Of a DNA stretch of 64,000 nucleotides, positions 1 to 63,600 are shown one piece after another. Position numbers and translations under genes: made by a program. Position 1 is the first letter of the stretch. Each line of letters opens with the position of its first letter. The notes under the pieces are model-generated. The model was given only the letters and a program-made list of their open reading frames with translations, was not told where the DNA came from and ran no database searches. This stretch comes from Gammaproteobacteria bacterium (lineage in GTDB: Bacteria; Pseudomonadota; Gammaproteobacteria; Ga0077536): positions 186,001-250,000 of the forward strand of contig JACQWY010000019.1 of the NCBI GenBank assembly GCA_016209015.1. Direction: 5' to 3'.

Positions 1-3483
<3,483 letters not shown>

Positions 3484-3489
3484 AGGGCC

Positions 3490-3505
3490 GGCGGCGCAGG
3501 CCGCC
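3490..3505. terminator. Hairpin between convergent slmA and the 3510 gene
   Basis: GGCGGC and GCCGCC arms separated by GCAG lie between the slmA stop and the stop of the opposing gene. There is no clear T-tract, so it is only a plausible bidirectional terminator. Confidence 0.35.
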
Positions 3506-3509
3506 TCGC

Positions 3510-4163
3510 TCATTGCCGGGCGCGCAGCTCGTGGAAGCGCTTGATGTCGGCGTCGAACTTCTCGCGCAGCCGATCCTTGTCCGCGCCTTTGTTCACGATG
3601 AACTGCTTGTTCTCTTCAATCTGTTTGCCGAGGTCGTCGATGCTGTTGGCGAGCTTGGGCGGCACCGCCTTGCCGCGCCGCTCGTCGTCCGCGGCCTGCT
3701 GAATGAGCACATCCTGCTGCTTGTGGAGCTTGTCGATGTGGCTCTCGGTGAGCTTGATCTGCGAATCGATGTTCGCGAGCTGACCATCGCGCGACAGCAG
3801 GAGATCCCCTTCCGAGCTGTAGGTGTCGAGCAATACCTTGTCGCGCGCGGCCTGCTTGTGGGCTTCGTCCTCGGCGGCCTTCTTCTGCACCGCCGCCTGA
3901 CGTTCGGCTTCGAGCTCCGCTTCGGTTCGCGCCTTGTCGGTCTTCTTGACCTTGGCACCGCCGGAGCTGACCTGTTCGTGCTCGTCCTGCGAATATTCGG
4001 GGGGCACGACGTTACCGCACTCCCGCACGCCCTCCTTGTTCGTCCAGCATTTGATGGCCTTGCCCCCGCTACTGGCGGCAGGCTTGTTGCCGGCGGCATA
4101 CGCCGTGCCGGCGAGCGCGGCGAGCAGGACGGCGAAGGTGATTTGCGAAAGGGAGCTTGGCAT
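3510..4163 (-). CDS. Secreted coiled-coil protein with DUF4124-like N-terminus, function unknown
   Basis: A 217-residue exported protein. The start is the ATG at 4163 because AGGAGG sits nine bases upstream; an earlier in-frame ATG directly abuts that Shine-Dalgarno sequence. Residues 1-23 form a signal peptide ending in TAYA. A short region with two cysteines (KCWTNKEGVRECG) resembles the start of DUF4124 proteins. From about residue 60 onward the chain is a charged coiled coil rich in Lys, Glu, Ala and Gln. A TATACT hexamer on the minus strand at 4227-4222 may be a -10 box, but no good -35 is present. A periplasmic structural or scaffold role is only a guess. The upstream neighbour on the same strand, pyrE, is about 100 bp away and probably not co-transcribed. 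Confidence 0.75.
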   Translation of the reverse strand: MPSSLSQITFAVLLAALAGTAYAAGNKPAASSGGKAIKCWTNKEGVRECGNVVPPEYSQDEHEQVSSGGAKVKKTDKARTEAELEAERQAAVQKKAAEDEAHKQAARDKVLLDTYSSEGDLLLSRDGQLANIDSQIKLTESHIDKLHKQQDVLIQQAADDERRGKAVPPKLANSIDDLGKQIEENKQFIVNKGADKDRLREKFDADIKRFHELRARQ

Positions 4164-4266
4164 CGATGTCATCCTCCTGTGGTCGGCCGCACGTGGCTGC
4201 GGCATCCGTCGAATGCGCGGCGAGTATAGCAGCGCGCGATGAACCGCCCGTGAATTGGCGATGGTT

Positions 4267-4908
4267 TCAGGCCCCGTACTCGCCGCGATAAGCGGCGATG
4301 GCGGCGAGTTCTCGAGGCCGATCGGCACGCGCGGCAAGGTATTCGACGACGTGCTGGAGCGCGACGATGCTGAAGACCGGCAGACCGTGCCGCTCGCGCA
4401 CTTCCTGCGCGGCCGAGCGCGCGCCCTGTCCGCGCTCCTGGCGATCGAGCGAGATGACGACACCGCAGGGCGTCGCGCCGGCGCCGCCGATGATCGCCAC
4501 CGATTCGTTCACCGAGGTGCCGGCGGAAATGACGTCGTCGACGATCAGCACGCGACCCGCCAACGGCGCGCCGAGCGTCATCCCGCCCTCGCCGTGATCC
4601 TTCGCCTCCTTGCGGTTGAAACAGAACGGCACGTCGCGGCCATGCTTCGTCGCGAGCGCGATCGCGACCGCCGCGCCGAGCGGAATGCCCTTGTAGGCGG
4701 GACCGAACAGCATGTCGAACCCGAGGCCGCTCGAGACGATCGCCGCGGCATAGTATTCGCCGAGCCGGGCGAGCGCGACACCGCTGTCGAAGACGCCGGT
4801 GTTGAAGAAGTAGGGACTCTGGCGACCCGATTTCAAGGTGAAGCTGCCGAAACGCAGGGCCTGACGTTCGATCGCGAATTCGATGAACGCGCGCTGATAA
4901 TTTTCCAT
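4267..4908 (-). CDS. pyrE: Orotate phosphoribosyltransferase
   Basis: Transfers ribose-5-phosphate from PRPP to orotate, giving OMP, the fifth step of de novo UMP synthesis. The 213-residue protein has the expected length and an intact PRPP-binding motif, [13 protein letters not shown], near residue 118. The flexible catalytic loop ([12 protein letters not shown]) carries the conserved Lys and His residues. It is transcribed divergently from the exonuclease III gene, the same pyrE/crc arrangement as in Pseudomonas. Other pyrimidine genes lie at 24-28 kb. Confidence 0.97.
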
Positions 4909-4994
4909 GCCGGGACCCGATCCGCGTGTGTAGAAGTGCCGTTATGATAAGCGTGCCGGCGCGTGCCGGGTATCGGCCTCGCCGCGAGCTTCTC

Positions 4995-5786
4995 ATGAGA
5001 ATCATCAGTCTGAACTGCAACGGCATCCGCTCCGCCTGCGCGAAGGGTTTCTACGCCTGGCTCGAGCGCCAGGACGCCGACGTCGTCTGTCTCCAGGAAA
5101 CGAAGGCGCAGATGGCGCTGCTCGACCGCGCGATCGCCCGGCCGCGCGGTTGGCACACATTCTTCATGGACGCGGAGAAGCCCGGTTACAGCGGTGTCGC
5201 GATCTTCAGCCGCCCCGAGCCCGACGCCGTGAGCTACGGTTTCGCATGGCCGGATTTCGATCGCGAGGGACGCTACGTCCAGGCGGACTTCGGCCGCCTG
5301 TCGATCGCCTCGATCTATCTGCCGTCGGGCTCCTCGAGCCCGGAGCGTCAGGCCGCGAAGTTCGATTTCATGGGGCGCTACCTGCCGCTGCTCGCCGCGC
5401 GGCGCCGCGAGGAACGCGAATACGTGCTGTGCGGCGACTGGAACATCGCGCACAAGCAGATCGATCTGAAGAACTGGCGTTCGAACCAGAAGAACTCCGG
5501 ATTCCTGCCGGAGGAGCGCGCCTGGCTCGACGAGCTGTTCGGCGCGGTGGGCTACGTCGACGCATTCCGGGCCGTGAACGTGGAGCCGGACCAGTACACC
5601 TGGTGGTCGAACCGCGGACAGGCCCGCGCGAAGAACGTGGGGTGGCGCATCGACTATCACATCGTCACGCCCGGTCTCGCCGGCAGCATCCGCAACGCGT
5701 CGATCTATACGGCGGAGCGTTTCTCCGACCACGCGCCGCTCACGCTCGACTACGATTTCTCCCCGGCCGATTTCCGGAAGCGCTGA
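4995..5786 (+). CDS. xthA: Exodeoxyribonuclease III (Crc-like subfamily, catalytic residues intact)
   Basis: AP endonuclease/3'-5' exonuclease of base-excision repair. The ATG at 4995 (263 residues) begins the conserved block MRIISLNCNGIRSA; upstream in-frame codons do not look protein-like. Overall sequence and position beside pyrE resemble Pseudomonas Crc, the catabolite repression protein, which has lost the active site. Here the nuclease residues are present: Glu in CLQETKA, Asp and Asn in CGDWNIAH, Asp in WRIDYHI, and the Asp-His pair in SDHAPL. It is therefore called an active nuclease; a second Crc-like role cannot be excluded. Its stop lies three bases before the end of convergent metW. 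Confidence 0.92.
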   Translation: MRIISLNCNGIRSACAKGFYAWLERQDADVVCLQETKAQMALLDRAIARPRGWHTFFMDAEKPGYSGVAIFSRPEPDAVSYGFAWPDFDREGRYVQADFGRLSIASIYLPSGSSSPERQAAKFDFMGRYLPLLAARRREEREYVLCGDWNIAHKQIDLKNWRSNQKNSGFLPEERAWLDELFGAVGYVDAFRAVNVEPDQYTWWSNRGQARAKNVGWRIDYHIVTPGLAGSIRNASIYTAERFSDHAPLTLDYDFSPADFRKR

Positions 5787-5789
5787 ATC

Positions 5790-6395
5790 TCACAGCACCG
5801 TCTTGCGGCGGAAGCGGTAGATCGCGATCTCGGCGAGCAGGTTCGGCAGGAAGCGCATCGCGAAGCCTGCACGGTGCTCGCTGTCGACGGCCGCTCGCTC
5901 GAGTACCTCGACCCGCTCCGTTGCGCACAAGGCTTCGAAATCGCGGATCGTGCACATGTGGATGTTCGCCGTGTCGTACCACGTGCTCGGCAGATGGCGC
6001 GTCACCGGCATCTGTCCCGTCAGGAGCTGCAGCCGGCATTTCCAATGGCCGAAATTCGGGAACGTCACGATGCCCTCGCGCCCGACGCGCAGCATCTCGC
6101 GGATGACGAGGTGCGGATAGCGCATCGCCTGCAGCGTCTGGGTCATGATCACGTAGTCGAAGGAGTCGTCGTCGAAATCCTGCAGGCCCTGATCGAGGTT
6201 GCCGTGGATGACGTTCACGCCGGCTTCGAGGCAGCGCACGATGTTCTCGCGGTCGATCTCGATGCCGTAGCCGGACACGTTCAGACGGCGACGCAGCTCG
6301 ACGAGCAGCGCGCCGTCGCCGCAGCCGAGATCGAGCACGCGGCTGCCGGGCGCGATCCATTCCGCGATGAGCGCCTGATCCTGGCGGAGACTCAT
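5790..6395 (-). CDS. metW: Methionine biosynthesis protein MetW (SAM methyltransferase fold)
   Basis: A 201-residue class I methyltransferase-fold protein. The SAM-binding motif [12 protein letters not shown] is near residue 20, and the following acidic [11 protein letters not shown] strand fits the fold. MetW proteins accompany MetX in many proteobacteria and are reported to be needed for full homoserine acyltransferase activity. A methyltransferase reaction has not been firmly assigned. The start codon overlaps the metX stop by four bases, so the two are translationally coupled. Confidence 0.93.
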
Positions 6396-7540
6396 GGCCG
6401 GAACTCCGCCCGGATGCGCTCGAAGTAGGTCCTCAGCACCGCGTGGTAGCGCGGGATCTCGAGCAGGAAGGAATCATGGCCGAGCTCGGACTCGATTTCG
6501 ACGTAGCTCACGTCGCGATCGGCGTCGAGCAGCGCGCGGACGATCTCGCGCGAACGCGCCGGCGAGAAGCGCCAGTCGCTGCTGAAGGAGACGACGAGGA
6601 ACTTCGCCTTCGCCTGCTTGACCGCCTGCGTGAGATTGTCGCCGTGGCGCGCGGCCGGGTCGAAATAATCGAGCGAGCGGGTCATGAGCAGATAGGTGTT
6701 CGCATCGAAACGGCCGACGAACGACGTGCCCTGGTGGCGCAGATAGCTCTCGATCTGGAACTCGACGTCGTAGCCGAAGTTGAGCTTGCCGTCGCGCAGC
6801 TCGCGCCCGAAGCGGGCGTGCAGCACGTCGTCGGACAGATACGTGATGTGGCCCAGCATGCGCGCGAGCATGAGCCCGTGCTGCGGCACGACGCCGTGTT
6901 CGTAGTAGCGTCCGCCGTGGAAGTTCGCGTCCGAGCGGATGGCCTGACGCGCGACCTCGTTGAACGCGATGTTCTGCGTCGAGAGCTTCGACGCGGCGGC
7001 GATGACGGCGGCGTGGCGCACGCGTTCGGGGTGATCGATCGACCACTGCAGCGCCTGCATGCCGCCGAGACTGCCGCCGAGGATCGCGGCCCAGCTCCGG
7101 ATGCCGAGCACGTCCGCGAGCCGCGCCTGACTCTCGACCCAGTCGCGAACCGTGACGATCGGAAAATCCGGGCCGTACGCGCGGCCGGTCGCCGGATTGA
7201 TCGACAAGGGTCCCGTCGAGCCCGCGCAACCGCCGAGGTTGTTCGGGCAGACGACGAAGAAGTGATTCGTGTCGACGGGCTTGCCGGGGCCGATGCAGTT
7301 GTCCCACCACCCGGCCTTCGCATCCTCGGCCTTGTGGTAGCCGGCCGCGTGATGGTCGCCGCTCAGGGCGTGGCAGATCAGCACCGCGTTGTCGGCCGCC
7401 GCGTTCAGCGTGCCATAGGTCTCGTAGACGAGCTCGTACCCCGGGAGCGCCGCGCCGCAGTCGAGCTGCAGGGGTTCTTCGAAGAGATGCTTGCGCGGGC
7501 TTACCAGACCGACGCTGTCGGCAGGTATCTCTGTAGGCAT
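6392..7540 (-). CDS. metX: Homoserine O-acyltransferase MetX
   Basis: Activates homoserine by acyl transfer (acetyl- or succinyl-CoA) as the first committed step of methionine synthesis. The 382-residue alpha/beta hydrolase has the nucleophile elbow GGSLGGMQ near residue 151, the N-terminal [11 protein letters not shown] segment, and the C-terminal catalytic Asp and His (SDWRF and ELGHDSF). Gammaproteobacterial MetX with MetW often prefers succinyl-CoA; I cannot decide the donor from reading. First gene of a two-gene operon with metW. Confidence 0.95.
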
Positions 7541-8509: not shown

Positions 8510-9330
8510 CAGCTTTTCCCCAGTTCCTGCGCGAGCTCGCGGGCCCGGTCGCGCGCGGCGTGCAGCGCCTCGTCGAAGAGCGCGGGCAGGCCGCCGCCCG
8601 TCAGCACGGCGAGCGCGCGTTCCGTGGTTCCGCCCTTGGACGTGACCTGGGCACGCAGCGTCGCAGGGTCGAATTCGGAGCGGCTCGCGAGCTCGGCAGC
8701 ACCGAGGCCCGTTTCGATCGCGAGCGCGCGCGCCGTCGCCGCTTCGAGGCCGAGCGCGGTACCGGCCGCCTCGAGCGCTTCGAGCACGAGGAAGAAATAC
8801 GCCGGGCCGCTGCCCGAGAGCGCGGTGACTGCGTCGATGAGGTCTTCGCGCTCCACCCAGACCGTCTTGCCGACCGCATCGAGGATGCCGGCCGCGACCG
8901 CGCGCTGCGTGCCGTCGACCCCGGGTCCGGCGTAGAGCCCGGCGATGCCGCGGCCGACGAGCGCCGGCGTGTTCGGCATGCTGCGCACGACGGGCACGTC
9001 GCCGAGCCATTCGGCGAGCAGTCCGGTCGTGATGCCCGCGGCGATGGAGAGCATCAGCGGGCGGCGCACCGCGAGCGCCGGCCGCAGCGCTCGGGCGACG
9101 GCCTTCAATTGCTGCGGCTTGACGGCGAGCACGACGACGTCCGCCTCCGCGACGGCCTCGGCGTTGTCGGCGGTCGCGAGCACGCCGTAGCGCTCCGCGA
9201 CGAGCGCGCGCGCCGCCGGCTCGGGATCCGCGACCCGGATGCGCGAGGCCGCATAGCCCTGCGCGAGCAGGCCGCCGAGGATGGCGCGGCCCATGTTGCC
9301 GCCGCCGATGAAGGCTAGACCACGTGCCAT
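8509..9330 (-). CDS. proC: Pyrroline-5-carboxylate reductase
   Basis: Last step of proline synthesis: NAD(P)H-dependent reduction of pyrroline-5-carboxylate. The 273 residues match the family. The Rossmann motif FIGGGNMGRAI is at the N-terminus, VVLAVKPQQL is near residue 70, and the C-terminal signature runs through LSGSGPAYFFLVLEAL and the TSKGGTTE block. Member of the yggS-proC-yggT-yggU cluster. Confidence 0.96.
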   Translation of the reverse strand: MARGLAFIGGGNMGRAILGGLLAQGYAASRIRVADPEPAARALVAERYGVLATADNAEAVAEADVVVLAVKPQQLKAVARALRPALAVRRPLMLSIAAGITTGLLAEWLGDVPVVRSMPNTPALVGRGIAGLYAGPGVDGTQRAVAAGILDAVGKTVWVEREDLIDAVTALSGSGPAYFFLVLEALEAAGTALGLEAATARALAIETGLGAAELASRSEFDPATLRAQVTSKGGTTERALAVLTGGGLPALFDEALHAARDRARELAQELGKS

Positions 9331-9387
9331 GGCGTTCCCTGGAGCATTCGTGAGTGGAGGCGCGAGTTTAGCATCCGCCGTACGGCC

Positions 9388-10083
9388 TCAGCCCTCGGCG
9401 CGCGGCCGCGCGCCGAACAGCGCCGTACCGATGCGGACGATCGTCGCGCCTTCGGCGATCGCCGCTTCGAAATCGCCGGACGTCCCCATCGACAGCGTAT
9501 CGAGCGTCGGGTCGCCGAGTGCGGCGAGCGCCTCGCGTACCCGCCGGAACCCCGCGCGCTGGCGCGCGAAGTCGTCTTCCGGCGCCGGCAACGCCATCAG
9601 GCCGCGCAGGCGGAGCCGCGGCAGCTCACGGCAACAGGCGAGGAGCTCCGGCAGCGCGGCGGGATCGATCCCGCCCTTGCTCGCCTCGCCGCTCACGTTC
9701 ACCTCGACGAGGCACTCCAGCGGCGGGAGCCCGGGCGGGCGCTGGGCATCGAGCCGCTCGGCGATCTTCAGCCGGTCGAGCGTATGGACCCAGGTGAAAT
9801 GCGCCGCGATGTCGCGCGTCTTGTTCGACTGGATGCGACCGATGAAATGCCAGCTCAAGCCCAGCCCCTCCAGGCGCGCTACTTTCGGGAGTGCCTCCTG
9901 CAGGTAGTTCTCCCCGAACGCCCGTTGTCCGGATGCCGCGAGCGCGGCGATCGCTTCCGGCGGCTGCTGCTTGCTGACGGCGAGCAGGCCCACGCTGCCC
10001 GGCGCGCGCCCGTGACGGCGCTCGGCATCCCGGATGCGGGCAAGCACGGTAGCGAGCGGGGCAGCGGCGGCGGGAGTCGTCAT
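9388..10083 (-). CDS. yggS: YggS family pyridoxal-5'-phosphate homeostasis protein
   Basis: PLP-binding alanine-racemase-like barrel protein (COG0325) that buffers pyridoxal phosphate. The PLP lysine is in LLAVSKQQP near residue 35. GENYLQEA, WHFIGRIQSNKT and the C-terminal LSMGTSGDFEAAI are intact. The ATG at 10083 gives 231 residues; a GTG at 10092 would add three. Neither has a clear Shine-Dalgarno. The gene is divergent from pilT, the common proteobacterial arrangement. Confidence 0.95.
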   Translation of the reverse strand: MTTPAAAAPLATVLARIRDAERRHGRAPGSVGLLAVSKQQPPEAIAALAASGQRAFGENYLQEALPKVARLEGLGLSWHFIGRIQSNKTRDIAAHFTWVHTLDRLKIAERLDAQRPPGLPPLECLVEVNVSGEASKGGIDPAALPELLACCRELPRLRLRGLMALPAPEDDFARQRAGFRRVREALAALGDPTLDTLSMGTSGDFEAAIAEGATIVRIGTALFGARPRAEG

Positions 10084-10282
10084 GGCGTGCACTATAATTC
10101 AGCGGCGGTGCTTCGCAGGGCTCGCATGACAACTCACGGCATTGCTTGTTAGAGTTTCGGCGCAGACTGAAGACCACGGGGCAAGCCGCTGTATTTTAGA
10201 AGTGGTTTCGACGCGAGGCGAGCGCCGCGACCACTTCGCGCCGCAGATGCTTCGATTGAGTATGCAATGAAAGGGGCTCGGA

Positions 10283-11317
10283 ATGGACATCGGTGAGTTG
10301 CTTGCCTTCAGCGTGAAGAACGGTGCGTCGGACCTCCATCTCTCGGCAGGTCTGCCGCCGATGATCCGCGTCGACGGCGACGTCCGGCGCATCAACGTCC
10401 CGGCGATGCAGCACAAGGACGTTCACGATCTCGTCTACGACATCATGAACGACAAGCAGCGCAAGGACTACGAGGAGTTCCTCGAGTGCGACTTCTCGTT
10501 CGAAATCCCGGGTCTCGCGCGCTTCCGCGTCAACGCGTTCAACCAGAATCGCGGCTCGGGCGCGGTGTTCCGTACGATTCCCTCGACGATCCTGAGCCTA
10601 GAAGATCTGAAATGCCCGTCGATCTTCAAGGACATCTCGGATTTCCCGCGCGGCGTCGTGCTCGTCACGGGGCCGACCGGATCCGGCAAGTCGACGACGC
10701 TCGCGGCGATGATCAACCACAAGAACGAAAACGAGTACGGTCACATCCTCACCATCGAGGATCCGATCGAATTCGTGCACCAGAGCAAGAAGTGCCTCAT
10801 CAACCAGCGCGAGGTGCATCGCGACACGCTCGGCTTCAACGAGGCGCTGCGCTCGGCGCTGCGCGAGGATCCCGACACCATCCTCGTCGGCGAAATGCGC
10901 GACCTGGAGACGATCCGCCTCGCGCTGACCGCGGCCGAGACGGGCCACCTCGTGTTCGGCACGCTGCACACGAGCTCGGCGGCGAAGACGATCGACCGTA
11001 TCGTCGACGTGTTCCCGGCGGAGGAGAAGGACATGGTGCGCGCGATGCTCTCCGAGAGCTTGCGGGCCGTCATCTCGCAGACCCTGCTGAAGAAGAACGG
11101 CGGCGGACGCTGTGCGGCGCACGAAATCATGATGGGCACGCCCGCCATTCGCAATCTCATTCGTGAGAACAAGATCGCCCAGATGTACTCGGCGATCCAG
11201 ACCGGACAGCAATTCGGCATGCAGACGCTCGATCAGTGTCTGCAGCAGCTCGTGCAGAAGGGTCTCGTCTCGCGCACGGAAGCGCGCATCAAGGCGCAGA
11301 ACAAGGACCTGTTCTAG
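10283..11317 (+). CDS. pilT: Type IV pilus retraction ATPase PilT
   Basis: Hexameric cytoplasmic ATPase that depolymerises type IV pili to power twitching motility. The 344 residues match canonical PilT. The N-terminal PAS-like domain starts MDIGELLAFSV. Walker A GPTGSGKST is near residue 130, Walker B/Asp box TILVGEMRD near 200, and the His box HTSSAAKTIDRI follows. An AGGGG ribosome-binding site lies about seven bases upstream of the ATG. Followed by a hairpin array and two more PilT-family genes. Confidence 0.97.
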   Translation: MDIGELLAFSVKNGASDLHLSAGLPPMIRVDGDVRRINVPAMQHKDVHDLVYDIMNDKQRKDYEEFLECDFSFEIPGLARFRVNAFNQNRGSGAVFRTIPSTILSLEDLKCPSIFKDISDFPRGVVLVTGPTGSGKSTTLAAMINHKNENEYGHILTIEDPIEFVHQSKKCLINQREVHRDTLGFNEALRSALREDPDTILVGEMRDLETIRLALTAAETGHLVFGTLHTSSAAKTIDRIVDVFPAEEKDMVRAMLSESLRAVISQTLLKKNGGGRCAAHEIMMGTPAIRNLIRENKIAQMYSAIQTGQQFGMQTLDQCLQQLVQKGLVSRTEARIKAQNKDLF

Positions 11318-11453
11318 GGAAGCTCTGAATAAGTCCATCCTGGACTTTTCAGAGCACGGTCGGCAAGAAGCGTGGTTCTTGCCGACCTTACGTGAACAAT
11401 GGCTTACGCCACTGTTCACGGCGGCACATCCCTGTGCCGCCGGAAGCTCTGAA
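11318..11453 (+). repeat. Array of four tandem hairpins flanked by a 12-bp direct repeat
   Basis: This fills most of the 203-bp gap between pilT and pilU. Hairpin A: 11322-11337 with 11341-11355 (15 pairs, one bulged T). B: 11358-11369 with 11376-11387 (12 perfect pairs). C: 11392-11403 with 11408-11419 (11 of 12). D: 11420-11428 with 11433-11441 (9 perfect, extendable by one). The sequence GGAAGCTCTGAA occurs at both ends (11318-11329 and 11442-11453). It looks like a non-coding, REP-like or miniature element rather than a simple terminator. It could also attenuate read-through from pilT. Confidence 0.8.
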
Positions 11454-11520
11454 CGCGTGACAGGCCACGGCCCCGGCGCGACGCGTCCGGGCGGTTCGAC
11501 TCAACAGCCGGAGAGCGGAT

Positions 11521-12690
11521 ATGGAACGCGAGCAAGCAATCAAGTACATGCGGGATCTGCTCAAGCTCATGGTGGAGAAGAAGGGCTCCGACCTCTTCAT
11601 CACCGTGGACTTTCCGCCCGCGATCAAGATCGACGGCAAGATCACGCCCGTCTCGAAGACGAAGCTCACGTCCGAGAATACCAAGGCGCTGACTTACGCA
11701 ATCATGAACGACCGCCAGTTGAAGGAGTACGAGGCGACGAAGGAATGCAACTTCGCCATCGCGCCCGCCGGCATCGGCCGCTTCCGCGTCAACTCCTACA
11801 TCCAGCAGGGCTACACGGGCATGGTCCTGCGCACGATCGAGACGAAGGTGCCCACGCTCGACGGCCTCGGGTTGCCGCCGGTCATGAAGGAAATCTCCAT
11901 GACGAAGCGCGGCCTCGTCATCATGGTCGGCGGTACGGGCTCCGGCAAGTCGACCTCGCTCGCGGCGATGATCAACCATCGCAACGAGAACAGCTACGGC
12001 CACATCATCACGATCGAGGACCCGATCGAGTACGTCCATCCGCACAAGAACTGCATCCTCACCCAGCGCGAAGTGGGCGTGGACACGGACGACTGGGAAA
12101 TCGCGCTGAAGAACACGCTGCGCCAGGCGCCCGACGTCATCCTCCTCGGCGAAATCCGCGATCGCGAGACGATGGAATTCGGCCTCGCCTTCGCCGAAAC
12201 CGGCCACCTCGCGATGGCCACGCTGCACGCGAACAGCTCGAACCAGGCGCTCGACCGCGTCATCAACTTCTTCCCCGAGGAGCGCCACCAGCAGCTCTTC
12301 ATGGATCTCTCGCTCAACATGAAGGCCATCATCTCGCAGCGGCTCCTGAAGAAAATCGACGGCAAGGGACGCGTCGCCGCGATCGAGATCATGCTGAATT
12401 CTCCCTTGATCAACGACCTCATCCTGAAGGGCGAAATCCACCAGCTGAAGGAAATCATGGCGAAGTCGAACGAGCTCGGCATGAAGACGTTCGACCAGGC
12501 GCTGTTCGACCTCTACGAAGCCGATCTCATCAGCTACGAGGACGCGATTCGCAACGCCGATTCGATGAACGAGCTGCGCCTGCGCATCAAGCTGCAGGGC
12601 AAGGCAGCGAAGCACAGCGACAAGCTCGCCGGTCTCGACCATCTCTCGCTAGAGCAGACGGTGGAGGAATCCGGCATGATGTTGCGCTGA
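11521..12690 (+). CDS. pilU: Type IV pilus retraction-associated ATPase PilU
   Basis: Paralogue of PilT that cooperates with it in retraction, especially under load. The 389 residues match the longer PilU subfamily. Walker A GGTGSGKST is near residue 136, Walker B/Asp box ILLGEIRDRETM and His box HANSSNQALDRV are intact. The charged C-terminal tail beyond about residue 350 is typical of PilU. Followed 31 bp downstream by a third family member. Confidence 0.95.
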   Translation: MEREQAIKYMRDLLKLMVEKKGSDLFITVDFPPAIKIDGKITPVSKTKLTSENTKALTYAIMNDRQLKEYEATKECNFAIAPAGIGRFRVNSYIQQGYTGMVLRTIETKVPTLDGLGLPPVMKEISMTKRGLVIMVGGTGSGKSTSLAAMINHRNENSYGHIITIEDPIEYVHPHKNCILTQREVGVDTDDWEIALKNTLRQAPDVILLGEIRDRETMEFGLAFAETGHLAMATLHANSSNQALDRVINFFPEERHQQLFMDLSLNMKAIISQRLLKKIDGKGRVAAIEIMLNSPLINDLILKGEIHQLKEIMAKSNELGMKTFDQALFDLYEADLISYEDAIRNADSMNELRLRIKLQGKAAKHSDKLAGLDHLSLEQTVEESGMMLR

Positions 12691-12721
12691 GCGGCACGCG
12701 CGGATCGACCAGGGAGCACGC

Positions 12722-13780
12722 ATGGACATCACTCCGTATCTGAAGCTGCTGCGCGACAAGGAAGGTTCCGACCTCTTCTTCAGCGTCGGCGCACCCGTCA
12801 AGATCAAGATCGAGGGCCAGATAAGCTCCGTCGGCAAGACGGTGCTCACGGCCGAGCTGACGAAAGCCGCCGCCTACGGCGTGATGACGCCGGCACAGAC
12901 CGAGCGCTTCGAGACGACTTACGAATGCGATTTCGCGATCTCGCTCGAGGACAAGTCGGCGCGTTATCGCGTCAACGTCTTTCGCCAGCGCGGCGAGGTC
13001 GGCATGGTCCTGCGCCGCATTCCGTCGGTCATTCCGACCATCGAGGAGCTCGGACTGCCGGAGGTCCTGAAAGCGCTCGTGATGCACAAGCGCGGACTCA
13101 TCCTCATGGTCGGCGCGACGGGCTCGGGCAAGTCGACGACGCTCGCGGCGATGATCAACGAACGCAATCAGAAGATGGCGGGGCACATTCTCACCATCGA
13201 GGATCCGATCGAGTTCTCGCACCCGAACATCAAGGCCATCGTCAACCAGCGCGAGATCGGCGTCGACACGCTGAGTTATCGCGCGGCGCTGAGATCCTCG
13301 CTCCGCGAGGCGCCGGACGTGATTCTGATCGGCGAAATCCGCGATCGCGAGACGATGGAAGCCGCGCTCGAGCTCTGCAACACGGGCCACCTCTGCCTGT
13401 CGACGCTGCATGCGAACAACGCGAACCAGGCCATGGAGCGCGTCATCAATCTCTTCCCGCAGGAGCTGCACAAGCAGCTCTTCCTCGACCTGTCGCTGAA
13501 CGTCCGCTCGGTCATTTCGCAGCGCCTCGTCCAGGGCATGGACGGCTATCGCGTTGCGGCGATCGAGATCCTGATCAACACGCCGCACATCGCGGATCTG
13601 ATCCTCAAGGGCCAGATCGGCAGCGTCAAGGAAGCGATGGAGCAGAGCGGCGCGAAAGGCATGCAGACCTTCGACATGGCGCTCTTCCAGCTCTACAAGG
13701 AGGAACGCATCGATCTCGAGGAGGCACTCAACAACGCCGACTCGCGGACGAACCTCGAAGCCCGCATCAATTTCGGATGA
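12722..13780 (+). CDS. Third PilT/PilU-family ATPase
   Basis: A 352-residue PilT-family hexameric ATPase, start ATG at 12722. The N-terminal region MDITPYLKLLRDKEGSDLFF is PilU-like, but the protein lacks PilU's long tail. Walker A GATGSGKST is near residue 130, followed by ILIGEIRDRETM and HANNANQAMERV, so all catalytic boxes look functional. It is clearly distinct from both neighbours at the protein level, so it is an old paralogue and not a recent tandem copy. It may be an extra retraction motor or a modulator of the other two. Confidence 0.9.
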   Translation: MDITPYLKLLRDKEGSDLFFSVGAPVKIKIEGQISSVGKTVLTAELTKAAAYGVMTPAQTERFETTYECDFAISLEDKSARYRVNVFRQRGEVGMVLRRIPSVIPTIEELGLPEVLKALVMHKRGLILMVGATGSGKSTTLAAMINERNQKMAGHILTIEDPIEFSHPNIKAIVNQREIGVDTLSYRAALRSSLREAPDVILIGEIRDRETMEAALELCNTGHLCLSTLHANNANQAMERVINLFPQELHKQLFLDLSLNVRSVISQRLVQGMDGYRVAAIEILINTPHIADLILKGQIGSVKEAMEQSGAKGMQTFDMALFQLYKEERIDLEEALNNADSRTNLEARINFG

Positions 13781-13792
13781 CGACAGGGGGAC

Positions 13793-14233
13793 ATGCGCGT
13801 GGAACGTCGGGACGTACTATTGGGCATGGGAGCGATGGCGCTCGCCGCCGCCGCGCGCGGCGCGGCCGCGGCCGACGAGCACGCCGCACATCATCATGCC
13901 GCACCGAACGGCAAGCTCGTCGCAGCCGCTTCGGACTGCCACACCGCGGCACAAGTCTGCATCGATCACTGCTTCGAACTGCTGGGCCGGGGTGACAAGA
14001 GCCTCGCCGCCTGCGCACGGAGCTCCTACGAGGTTGCCGCCGTCTGCGCCGCCCTGCAGCAGCTCGCCGCGTCGAGCTCGAAGCACCTCGCCGCCTACGC
14101 AAAAGTCGCCGCGATCGTCTGCAAGGACTGCCGGGAGGAGTGCAAGAACCACGAGGATCATGAACAGTGCAAGAAGTGCGGCGAAGCCTGCGCCGCCTGC
14201 GCGAAGGAATGCGACGCCATCCTCGGCGTCTGA
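13793..14233 (+). CDS. Csp1-like copper storage protein (four-helix bundle, 13 Cys), Tat-exported
   Basis: Small secreted cysteine-rich protein. The N-terminus carries a twin-arginine pattern (ERRDVLLGMGAM), a hydrophobic Ala-rich stretch and a His-rich mature start (DEHAAHHHAA). The rest is a helical bundle with CxxxxxxCxxxC-type spacing. I count 13 Cys after the signal, matching the number in the exported copper-storage protein Csp1 of methanotrophs, where Cys thiolates line the bundle and bind many Cu(I) ions. AGGGGG lies only two bases from the ATG at 13793; a GTG at 13799, eight bases away, is an equally good start. Placed 12 bp behind the third pil ATPase, but the function is unrelated. 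Confidence 0.85.
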   Translation: MRVERRDVLLGMGAMALAAAARGAAAADEHAAHHHAAPNGKLVAAASDCHTAAQVCIDHCFELLGRGDKSLAACARSSYEVAAVCAALQQLAASSSKHLAAYAKVAAIVCKDCREECKNHEDHEQCKKCGEACAACAKECDAILGV

Positions 14234-14311
14234 GACCGTGCCCGGGCGCACGGTGATCCCGGGCGCCCGGCCCGCCTCGCTGCGGCGTTCTTCTGCGGCG
14301 TTGCGCTCCCC

Positions 14312-14983
14312 ATGACCGCTCTCGAAACCCGCGAAGGTGTCGTGCTGCTGCACGGCCTCGGACGTACGGCAGCTTCCATGCGGCCGGTCGAGAAAGCGTT
14401 GCGCGCGGCCGGCTACGTCGTAGTCAACGACGGATATCGCTCGACACGAGAACCGGTCGAGCGGCTGGCCGTCATCGTGGGAGCGGGTATCGCGAAGTGC
14501 CGCGCCGCCGGGGCGACCGACATCCACTTCGTCACCCATTCGCTGGGCGGCATCCTCGTGCGGACCTGGTTCCAGGATCACACCGCGCCCGAGGCACGCC
14601 GCCTCGTCATGCTCGGGCCGCCGAACCATGGCAGCGAGGTCGCGGATCGCCAACGCGGCGCGGCCTGGTACCGCTGGCTCACGGGACCCGCCGGCCAGCA
14701 GCTCGGCACGGAGGCGTCGAGTGCCCCGAACCGCTGCCGGCCGATTCCGCTCGAAATCGGAGTCATCGCCGGCACGGCGAGCGCCGATCCGTGGTTCGCC
14801 GGCTCGTTCGACGGACCGAACGACGGCAAAGTCGCGGTCGCGAGCGCGCGCCTCGCCGGAATGCGGGATTTTCTCACGGTGCCGCGCAGCCACACGTTCA
14901 TGATGCGTTCCGACGTCGTGATCGGGCAGGTGCTCGCGTTCCTGCGCGAGGGACGCTTCGAGGGGGATCGCACCTCGGGTTGA
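14312..14983 (+). CDS. Alpha/beta-hydrolase, triacylglycerol-lipase/PGAP1-like
   Basis: A 223-residue cytoplasmic-looking hydrolase with no signal peptide. VVLLHGLGR forms the oxyanion hole, THSLGGIL near residue 76 the nucleophile elbow, and later acidic and His residues (DGPNDGKV, PRSHTFM) complete a plausible triad. The sequence resembles short lipases/esterases of the PGAP1-like group found widely in gammaproteobacteria. Substrate unknown. No convincing Shine-Dalgarno precedes the ATG. Confidence 0.8.
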   Translation: MTALETREGVVLLHGLGRTAASMRPVEKALRAAGYVVVNDGYRSTREPVERLAVIVGAGIAKCRAAGATDIHFVTHSLGGILVRTWFQDHTAPEARRLVMLGPPNHGSEVADRQRGAAWYRWLTGPAGQQLGTEASSAPNRCRPIPLEIGVIAGTASADPWFAGSFDGPNDGKVAVASARLAGMRDFLTVPRSHTFMMRSDVVIGQVLAFLREGRFEGDRTSG

Positions 14984-61576: not shown

Positions 61577-61957
61577 TCAGTGCAGACCGGCGGCCGCGCT
61601 CCAGATGCGCAGCACGAGGAGCGTCGCGCCGCCCGCCGCGAGCCGGCCGTTCGCCCGTGCGAGCAGCGCGTCGAGGCCGGTCTCGCGGGTGTTCCAGGCG
61701 AAAGCGACCGCGCGCGGCGCCGCGGCGGTGCGCAGTGTCGCGGCCGCGAGTCCCGCCTCGCCCGCGAGGGCCGCACGGAGGACGTCGTCGCTCACCGTCC
61801 CGTCGATGCCGAGATAGGCGATGTCGAGTCCTTCGCGCAGGGCCTGCTGCTCGACGGCGTAGTCGTAGACGACCGCCACGCGATCCTCGACGCAGTGTCC
61901 GCAGCCGAACGCGTGGCCCGCCGCGAGGCCGAGCAGGGCGCCGAGGCGCTTGTTCAT
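61577..61957 (-). CDS. Small CGHC protein coupled to nirK, function unknown
   Basis: A 126-residue protein with a hydrophobic N-terminus (LGALLGLAAGHAFGCG) that may be a signal or lipoprotein-like leader. Immediately after it comes CGHCVEDR, a CxxC motif with an intervening His, followed by an alpha/beta region (VVYDYAVEQQALREG, VAFAWNTRETG). The ATG at 61957 overlaps the nirK stop (ATGA). The motif and coupling suggest a copper- or heme-related periplasmic accessory protein; this is inference. Confidence 0.7.
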   Translation of the reverse strand: MNKRLGALLGLAAGHAFGCGHCVEDRVAVVYDYAVEQQALREGLDIAYLGIDGTVSDDVLRAALAGEAGLAAATLRTAAAPRAVAFAWNTRETGLDALLARANGRLAAGGATLLVLRIWSAAAGLH

Positions 61958-63378
61958 TCGACCGCCTTCACCGCCTTGCCGCGCGCGTCGAACCAGTGGA
62001 AGTAGCGCACGAGATGATTGATCTCCGCTGCGGAGAGCCCCTGGTCCGGCATCGCGAGCGTGAACTTCTTCTGCAGCGCCTGGGCCTCGGCATCGTGCTT
62101 CAGCAGCTCCGCGGGATTCGCGAGCCAGCGCGCGAGCCACTCGTCCGTGCGCCGCGTCGTCACGCCGAGCAGATCCGGGCCGAGCTTGTCGCCGCCGCCG
62201 ACGGAGTGACAGGCGATGCATTTGCCCTCGAACGCGAGCTTGCCCTTCACCGCCTCGGGCTCGACGGGCGTCGCCGTCTCCGGAATGTTGTGATGCTCGA
62301 GATCGCCCGATTCCGCCCCGCCCGTCGCATCCACGAGGCCGACCGCGCCCTGCGATGCGTTCGCGAAGTGATGGTCGACGATGATGTACTTCCCGGCGTC
62401 GGGAATGCGGAATTCGACGATCGCGCTGCTGCTCGAGCCGAGCAGCACGGTCTGCATGCCGCGCAGCTCGTTGTAGGGATTTCCGTCGAGCCACACGCGA
62501 TCGAAGATCGCGCCGACGACGTGGAAGCTCGAGGTGTTGCTCGGCCCGACGTTCAGCACGAACAGGCGCACGCGCTCGCCCGGCTTCGCGACGAGGGGAT
62601 GCTCGACGAGCCCGTTGTAGCGGCCGTTGAACACCGTGTAAGTCGGCGCCTTCGTCTTCACGCGCTCGGTGTCGAGCACGTTCAGCACGCCGCCGCCGAT
62701 CTTCCGGCCCTCGGGGTCGGGCTTCGTGTAGAACTCGCTCTGAACGACCACGAATTCGCGATCGACCTTTGTCGGGTAGCCCTCGCGCGGCTCGACGATG
62801 ACGACACCGTACATGCCCGACGCGATATGCTCGAGGATCATGGGCGTGCCGCAGTGATACATGAACACGCCCGGATAATTCGGCGTGAAGTCGAACGCGA
62901 TCGTCTGGCCCGGCGCGATCGAGCGGTACTTGTCCTGCGGCGAGACCATCGCGGCATGGAAGTCCATCGAGTGCATCATCGGCGCGGCGAAGGACAGTGC
63001 GCCCGGCGCGACTTAGTCGCTGCGGTTCGTCATGCTGAAATGAATGCGATCGCCGACCCGCGCGCGGACGATCGGCCCGGGGACCCGGTCCCCGAACGTC
63101 CAGGCGCTGTAGGAAACGCCGGGTGCGATCTCGATCACCTTGTGGCTCGTGTCGATCGCGATCGTCTTCTCGGGCGCGGGATCGAGCGGCTGGACCAGCG
63201 GTATCGCGCTCAGCGCCGGGCCGCTCGCGAACGCTCCGGTGTGTCGCGTGGTCGAAAGCTTCGCGGGCGCGGATTGCAGATCCATCTTCGCTTCATCGAA
63301 GGGATCGGTCGCGGCCGACACGGTGGAAGTGGCCAACAAGAACGCGAGCGCGCCGTGGCGCGACGAGAACTGGAACAT
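61954..63378 (-). pseudogene. nirK: Copper nitrite reductase NirK with C-terminal cytochrome c domain, interrupted by in-frame TAA
   Basis: Periplasmic reduction of nitrite to nitric oxide. Start ATG 63378 with GGGAGG upstream and a signal peptide ending STVSA. The frame is open for 121 codons, stops at TAA (63015-63013) after FSMTNRSD, then continues in the same frame for 352 codons. Sense reading resumes with VAPGALSFAAPMMHSMDFH, so only that codon breaks the protein. Downstream the type 1 and type 2 copper ligands are present (HSMDFH, YHCGTP, EHIASGM, SFHVVG). A C-terminal haem c motif KCIACHS lies near codon 386, as in three-domain NirK. GAA-to-TAA is the simplest explanation, either a nonsense mutation or a sequence error. 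Confidence 0.88.
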
Positions 63379-63600
63379 CGACGGACCTCCCAATGCACCT
63401 GGCATCGCGGTCCGTCGCAAGCGCTCAATCGGATGGTGTCTCTGGCACAGCCAGTGCCGGAACTATAGTGGCTCGCGGCGGGCCCGGCCAGCGCAAGCCA
63501 TACCCGACACGCGCGCGGCGAGGCGTGAAATCGCGGCACGGCGCACGGATATTCCGCGGCGATCGTCGTTACATTCCGATCCAACGGGCGAGGAGGGACG

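Follow-up and report, generated by a model that had tools for sequence, protein, structure and literature searches.

A Csp1-family copper-storage protein with a twin-arginine leader, encoded behind pilT/pilU-family genes in a gammaproteobacterium

The stretch of DNA analysed here (64,000 nucleotides, hereafter the window) carries on its plus strand, at positions 13793-14233, an open reading frame of 146 codons for amino acids (ATG at 13793, stop at 14231-14233). Its product contains 13 cysteines, at residues 49, 56, 60, 74, 85, 110, 113, 117, 126, 129, 133, 136 and 140. Cysteine accounts for 0.97% of the residues encoded by 19 other genes of the window (64/6631), and at this background the binomial probability of at least 13 cysteines in 146 residues is ~2.4e-9. 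Since GC content at the three codon positions (0.71/0.52/0.82) is gene-like, the frame was taken to be a real gene, which we call csp1. The translation begins with a twin-arginine leader (residues 1-27, ERRDVLLG..., 13793-13873): reading by eye, R5-R6 is followed by a hydrophobic stretch and by a putative cleavage site after residue 27 (A-A-A followed by D), so that the twin arginine pointed out in the initial annotation is indeed there; it is shared by 41 of the 43 family members that were aligned. The mature protein, which contains no methionine, would start with a short His-rich stretch (DEHAAHHH..., 13874-13906; low pLDDT) and continue as a four-helix bundle (13910-14224; helices at residues 40-65, 69-93, 99-120 and 124-144 in an AF2 model built on a 43-row alignment).

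Upstream of csp1, three pilT/pilU-family ATPase genes lie in tandem at 10283-13780 on the same strand (10283-11317, 11521-12690 and, pilU-like, 12722-13780; TIGR01420 scores of 504.3, 452.4 and 420.8 bits, respectively) and csp1 starts 12 bp past the third. Downstream is an alpha/beta hydrolase gene (14312-14983, plus strand; PF00561 28.7 bits, cut-off 25.8), and a DedA-like gene is also among the neighbours. No copper efflux or resistance gene was found near csp1 among 10 window proteins scanned. The interval 13300-14500 gave no promoter-like or terminator-like match, which is little informative since shuffled sequences give just 0.1; read-through transcription from the pilU-like gene into csp1 is possible.

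The window protein matches the NCBIfam model TIGR04401 ('Csp1 family four helix bundle copper storage protein', curated cut-off 100 bits) with 131.9 bits over model positions 2-150 of 151. In a sequence search of the PDB, MtCsp1 of Methylosinus trichosporium OB3b was hit far more strongly (5fjd, E 1.2e-22) than the Csp3 proteins (4.6e-4 for 5fig, or weaker), and the cytosolic Csp3 identity was rejected on this difference together with the presence of a leader. When the protein is aligned with MtCsp1, all 13/13 cysteines fall in register, and His59 corresponds to the entrance His36. The Csp1-like cysteine count and helical spacing that had been noted from the letters of the DNA are thus borne out, and the protein is an ordinary member of an already known exported family.

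Conservation within the family was assessed on the alignment of 43 rows (the window plus 42 loci), whose rows had mostly been retrieved by patterns covering the final cysteines, so that this end is biased. Loci L012-L015, L019-L023, L050 and L059 were left out of it, as were L042, L066 and L072, which duplicate other loci exactly or nearly so; also not used were L006 and L024-L037 (under the Csp1 cut-off) and L077 and L079-L100 (tblastn E 6e-10 or weaker). The entrance histidine is present in 43/43 rows and all 13 cysteine columns are kept in 35/43, a somewhat favourable count because the minus-strand loci L013-L015 and L019-L023, with 14, 13, 14, 12, 12, 12, 10 and 11 cysteines respectively, stand outside the alignment. 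As a separate observation, the Csp1-family copies at L004, L005, L017, L018, L038, L055 and L067 lack both of the final two bundle cysteines and the copy at L016 lacks one of them.

The AF2 model is of high confidence from residue 41 onwards (block pLDDT 94-99), with lower values for residues 21-30 (53) and 31-40 (76). It superposes on 5fjd_A with a Z-score of 21.8 and an rmsd of 1.3 A over 110 residues (41% identity); the closest folds (Foldseek, VIA-align) are Csp1 and then Csp3 (Z about 17-20). The four-helix bundle expected by the initial annotation is therefore what the model gives. It follows that the predicted bundle is lined with cysteines, and these would point inward because their register is that of MtCsp1. 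At the copper entrance, Leu63, Arg66 and Leu71 replace Met40, Met43 and Met48 of MtCsp1. These methionines are termed 'largely conserved' in a passage of PMC5171941. Methionine occupies the three places in 4, 0 and 20 of the 43 rows, respectively, so that variation of the entrance is common in the family, and since the TIGR04401 cut-off is exceeded without them, the entrance methionines are not defining for Csp1. We predict that with a non-Met entrance the rate of Cu(I) release differs from that of MtCsp1; the natural leucine at the Met48 place would allow the role of entrance residues in release to be compared with MtCsp1.

It was also asked of the compared loci what surrounds csp1 elsewhere. 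Searching 99 loci (many with 1.5 kb flanks only) with 11 window proteins other than Csp1 (tblastn) gave matches in L060, L069 and L073 only. The sole PilT-family match, in L060, lies ~3 kb from its csp1; the pilT/pilU-csp1 arrangement was seen in none of these 99 other loci, and a conserved synteny was rejected. The papers retrieved on Csp1 in combination with pilT or type IV pili do not mention copper storage. We take the link of csp1 to pilus genes to be chance or read-through. Other genes do recur: in 57 clustered loci, TonB-dependent receptor genes of two kinds are found near csp1 (8 and 5 loci), as are TolQ/ExbB- and TolR/ExbD-like genes (7 loci each), with L040-L058 among these loci. One of the two receptor kinds scores over a siderophore-receptor cut-off, and the other recurrent-neighbour proteins were annotated below theirs. 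Further neighbour clusters occur in 17, 12 and 12 of the 57 loci, where some frames overlap csp1; annotation covers the TonB and Tol/Exb clusters. In L044 (region 4618-6336), for example, a TolR/ExbD-like gene (5378-5794) precedes csp1, which starts at 5866, and in L047 (region 3388-6444) a TonB receptor gene (3388-5688) precedes csp1, which starts at 6001. The L047 receptor, whose TIGR01778 score is under the cut-off, contains a CPNHMNSP stretch reminiscent of copper receptors of the OprC/NosA kind. In the host genome the same TonB copper receptor model gives 91.7 bits, below its cut-off of 472.45.

The host genome contains one TIGR04401 match and no match to PF03860 at E 0.001. A search of 36 genomes from the host's order, which all belong to one family, gave matches over the TIGR04401 cut-off in 4, and 14/369 genomes of its class have such a match. 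A first contig scan with the single protein gave no relative and a plasmid collection gave no match; a second scan, of named genomes, gave 62 loci, of which 39 (E 4e-19 or better) include Gallionella, other Nitrosomonadales, Magnetospirillum, Hyphomicrobium, Rhodoplanes, Methylotenera, a zetaproteobacterium and a Bdellovibrio. That Csp1 also occurs in bacteria other than methanotrophs has already been published, as passages of PMC12510493, PMC6769254 and PMC7558416 indicate, and the first of these calls it rare. In a tree of 53 rows, which takes in L012-L015, L019-L023 and L050, the window copy groups with Gallionellaceae/Nitrosomonadales (modest support, 81/40 for 9 rows and 87/83 for 19 rows) and apart from the other copies of the host's family. 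This topology suggests that csp1 may have been transferred from Gallionellaceae, although a single clade for the four copies of the host's family is not rejected (AU P 0.092). None of the papers searched names a copper storage protein together with Gallionella. One Gallionella MAG (STB_51) carries a near-identical pair of csp1 genes on different contigs (L039 and L042).

Unexpectedly, the host also encodes a copper membrane monooxygenase (CuMMO) of the methane/ammonia type. A PF02461 gene (324 bits) was found on a contig other than that of csp1, and the locus around it (L111; contig C28, ~187.5-190.6 kb) contains a complete xmoC-xmoA-xmoB set (8946-9776, 9906-10730 and 10730-11989). All three subunits exceed the cut-offs of the bacterial AMO models (AmoC_BACT 372.7/319, AmoA_BACT 331.9/290, AmoB_BACT 533.9/336); TIGR03078 (307.4/280.6) and TIGR03079 (439.6/394.9) are also exceeded, and TIGR03080, for the A subunit, stays under its cut-off (297.4, cut-off 318.15). 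The products match both pMMO and AMO structures, pMMO slightly better, and the alignments keep the pMMO register at the N-terminal histidine and HVH of the B subunit and at D-H-H of the C subunit, which we take to be metal-ligand residues of pMMO. Downstream of xmoCAB are an esterase-like gene, a gene for a secreted protein of no assigned function and CopC- and CopD-like genes, the last two below their cut-offs. A XoxF-like methanol dehydrogenase gene (L112, 1372-3252, minus strand), encoding a PQQ dehydrogenase whose best match is to XoxF structures (6dam, 920.8 bits), is present as well, and the PQQ alcohol dehydrogenases of the host over the TIGR03075 cut-off are four in all. No match to PF13447 (HAO-type) was obtained in the host, an uninformative result since the controls were equally silent. 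Given xmoCAB and the XoxF-like gene, oxidation of C1 compounds or short alkanes by the host is possible, and ammonia may be the substrate instead. The 'non-methanotroph-like context' of the initial annotation therefore holds for the neighbouring genes but is not supported for the genome.

Whether Csp1 and CuMMO go together was examined with tables that count matches over the TIGR04401 cut-off. Among 369 genomes of the class, PF02461 is present in 4/14 Csp1 carriers and in 6/355 others (Fisher P = 2.4e-4), and with the host removed the numbers are 3/13 and 6/355 (P = 0.0026). These P values overstate independence because just 3 families are common to the 13 families with Csp1 and the 8 with CuMMO. 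A looser count (E 0.001 or better) gives PF02461 in 6/29 Csp1-matching genomes vs 4/340, the 29 also taking in weak matches, some of them resembling Csp3 or confined to the leader. Within the family of the host, CuMMO (PF02461) is found in 12/36 genomes and Csp1 in 4/36, the host being the only one with both (Fisher P = 1.0). A link is thus suggested across the class, and none is seen within the host's family. In the double carriers G208, G063 and G172, the 7-12 kb around csp1 contained no CuMMO gene when inspected by eye. Near csp1 of G172, whose genome has PF02461 twice, we noticed a cupredoxin-like frame (L124, 2056-2613, minus strand; by eye).

As an overall explanation we favour a Csp1-type copper-storage protein, Tat-exported and acting as a periplasmic store or buffer of Cu(I) (probability about 0.88). 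The family, the cysteine register and the predicted fold are directly supported; from there we infer export, Cu(I) binding, a storage role and a client. Judging from its leader, the protein probably folds in the cytosol and is then exported via Tat. By analogy with MtCsp1 and the gonococcal Csp, each monomer could bind about a dozen Cu(I) ions on the 13 inward cysteines of the bundle, with copper presumably entering and leaving at its open end, past the retained His59 and the residues that stand in place of the methionines. For the Csp1 family about 13 Cu(I) per monomer and a tetramer would be expected. In the periplasm such a protein would buffer or store Cu(I), keep its toxicity low and provide copper to cuproenzymes of the periplasm or membrane. 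Kinship thus supports periplasmic Cu(I) storage or buffering well; the absence of copper genes among the immediate neighbours and of all the MtCsp1 entrance methionines speaks against it.

It is very unlikely that the protein instead belongs to the wider DUF326 group, as a four-helix protein rich in cysteine that has a different metal or function. DUF326 (PF03860) does touch one cysteine segment of the protein, but with 13.3 bits it stays below the Pfam gathering cut-off of 20.4, whereas the match to the Csp1 model is full-length and the Csp1 structures match; the best HMM match is to Csp1, not DUF326. Less probable still is the supply of copper to a nitrite reductase of the window, the role that the initial annotation had considered. 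The same 64 kb do contain a gene for a NirK-like multicopper protein that carries a cytochrome c at its C-terminus (61954-63420, minus strand; Cu-oxidase and Cytochrom_C domains) and, adjoining its end, a gene for the small CGHC protein that had also been noted (61577-61957, minus strand), which has a leader-like start. However, both are 47-48 kb from csp1, the NirK-like gene at 48 kb; it scores 193.9 bits against TIGR02376, under the equivalog cut-off of 296.3, its frame is broken by an in-frame TAA (63013-63015; explained by gene decay, by recoding of the stop or by an error in the assembly) and the TIGR02376 cut-off is exceeded nowhere in the host genome. The 'copper nitrite reductase' thus stands as a NirK-like gene and not as an intact equivalog, and NirK was dropped as a client of Csp1.

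The two remaining alternatives concern what the store is for. With a likelihood that we place slightly short of even, the protein is mainly a detoxifying periplasmic buffer that takes up Cu(I) when copper is a stress and serves no enzyme in particular. Deletion of the gonococcal csp gene is reported to increase copper sensitivity (passages of PMC12510493); three of the four Csp1 carriers of the host's family lack CuMMO, no PF02461 match was obtained in 13/17 Csp1 carriers tested, and the patchy presence in the class fits an accessory trait. A buffer of this kind sits less well with neighbours among which no copper resistance gene was seen, and with a description of MtCsp1 as upregulated along with pMMO genes and as a Cu store for pMMO (in PMC6747150), against which stands the statement of a 2026 transcriptome study that csp expression was similar across all tested conditions (in PMC12811070). 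A dedicated store for the host's CuMMO, as proposed for MtCsp1 and pMMO, is possible but clearly less probable. The complete xmoCAB with CopC- and CopD-like genes downstream, the XoxF-like gene and the class co-occurrence, with or without the host, argue for it; the single overlap in the host's family, the small number of shared families, the lack of gene linkage (csp1 and CuMMO being on different host contigs) and 11 CuMMO genomes of the family without a Csp1 match, some of them incomplete, argue against it. General buffering of Cu(I) would require no particular client; were there one large client in the host, the CuMMO on the other contig would be the likeliest, a tentative assignment at best. 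Improbable, finally, is the conjunction of a Met-free, Leu-gated Csp1 from a Gallionellaceae-like donor, set behind pilT/pilU genes and holding copper in the periplasm for slow release to a little-known CuMMO of Gammaproteobacteria; if true, a store-client pair would have been put together independently of the classical methanotrophs. With a single-copy Csp1 together with CuMMO and a XoxF-like dehydrogenase in one bacterium, from a family in which no other genome searched combines Csp1 with CuMMO, the store-for-monooxygenase idea becomes testable there.

Among known systems, MtCsp1 (PDB 5fjd/5fje) shares with the window protein the register of 13 cysteines, the entrance histidine and the fold. 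The window protein differs in having no equivalents of Met40, Met43 and Met48, and, the host having one TIGR04401 match, no Csp2-like paralogue is seen in its genome. By sequence, the Csp1 proteins nearest to the window copy, at no more than 56% identity, come from Gallionellaceae and further Nitrosomonadales (among L039-L058); in loci of Gallionellaceae and their kin, genes for TonB receptors or for TolQ/ExbB- and TolR/ExbD-like proteins recur near csp1, whereas in the window they do not. Neisseria gonorrhoeae, which encodes the Csp1 homologue NGO1701, has to our knowledge no CuMMO. NGO1701, a Tat-leader member of the Csp1 family outside methanotrophs with N-terminal histidines, resembles the window protein with its putative Tat leader; it is reported to have 15 cysteines, compared with 13 here, and to bind ~15 Cu(I) when purified (passages of PMC12510493). 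The cytosolic Csp3 proteins have a similar fold but, unlike the window protein, no leader, and their sequence match to it is far weaker than that of Csp1; leucine at the Met48 place is a feature that the window protein has in common with MtCsp3 and BsCsp3, as described in part of PMC5171941.
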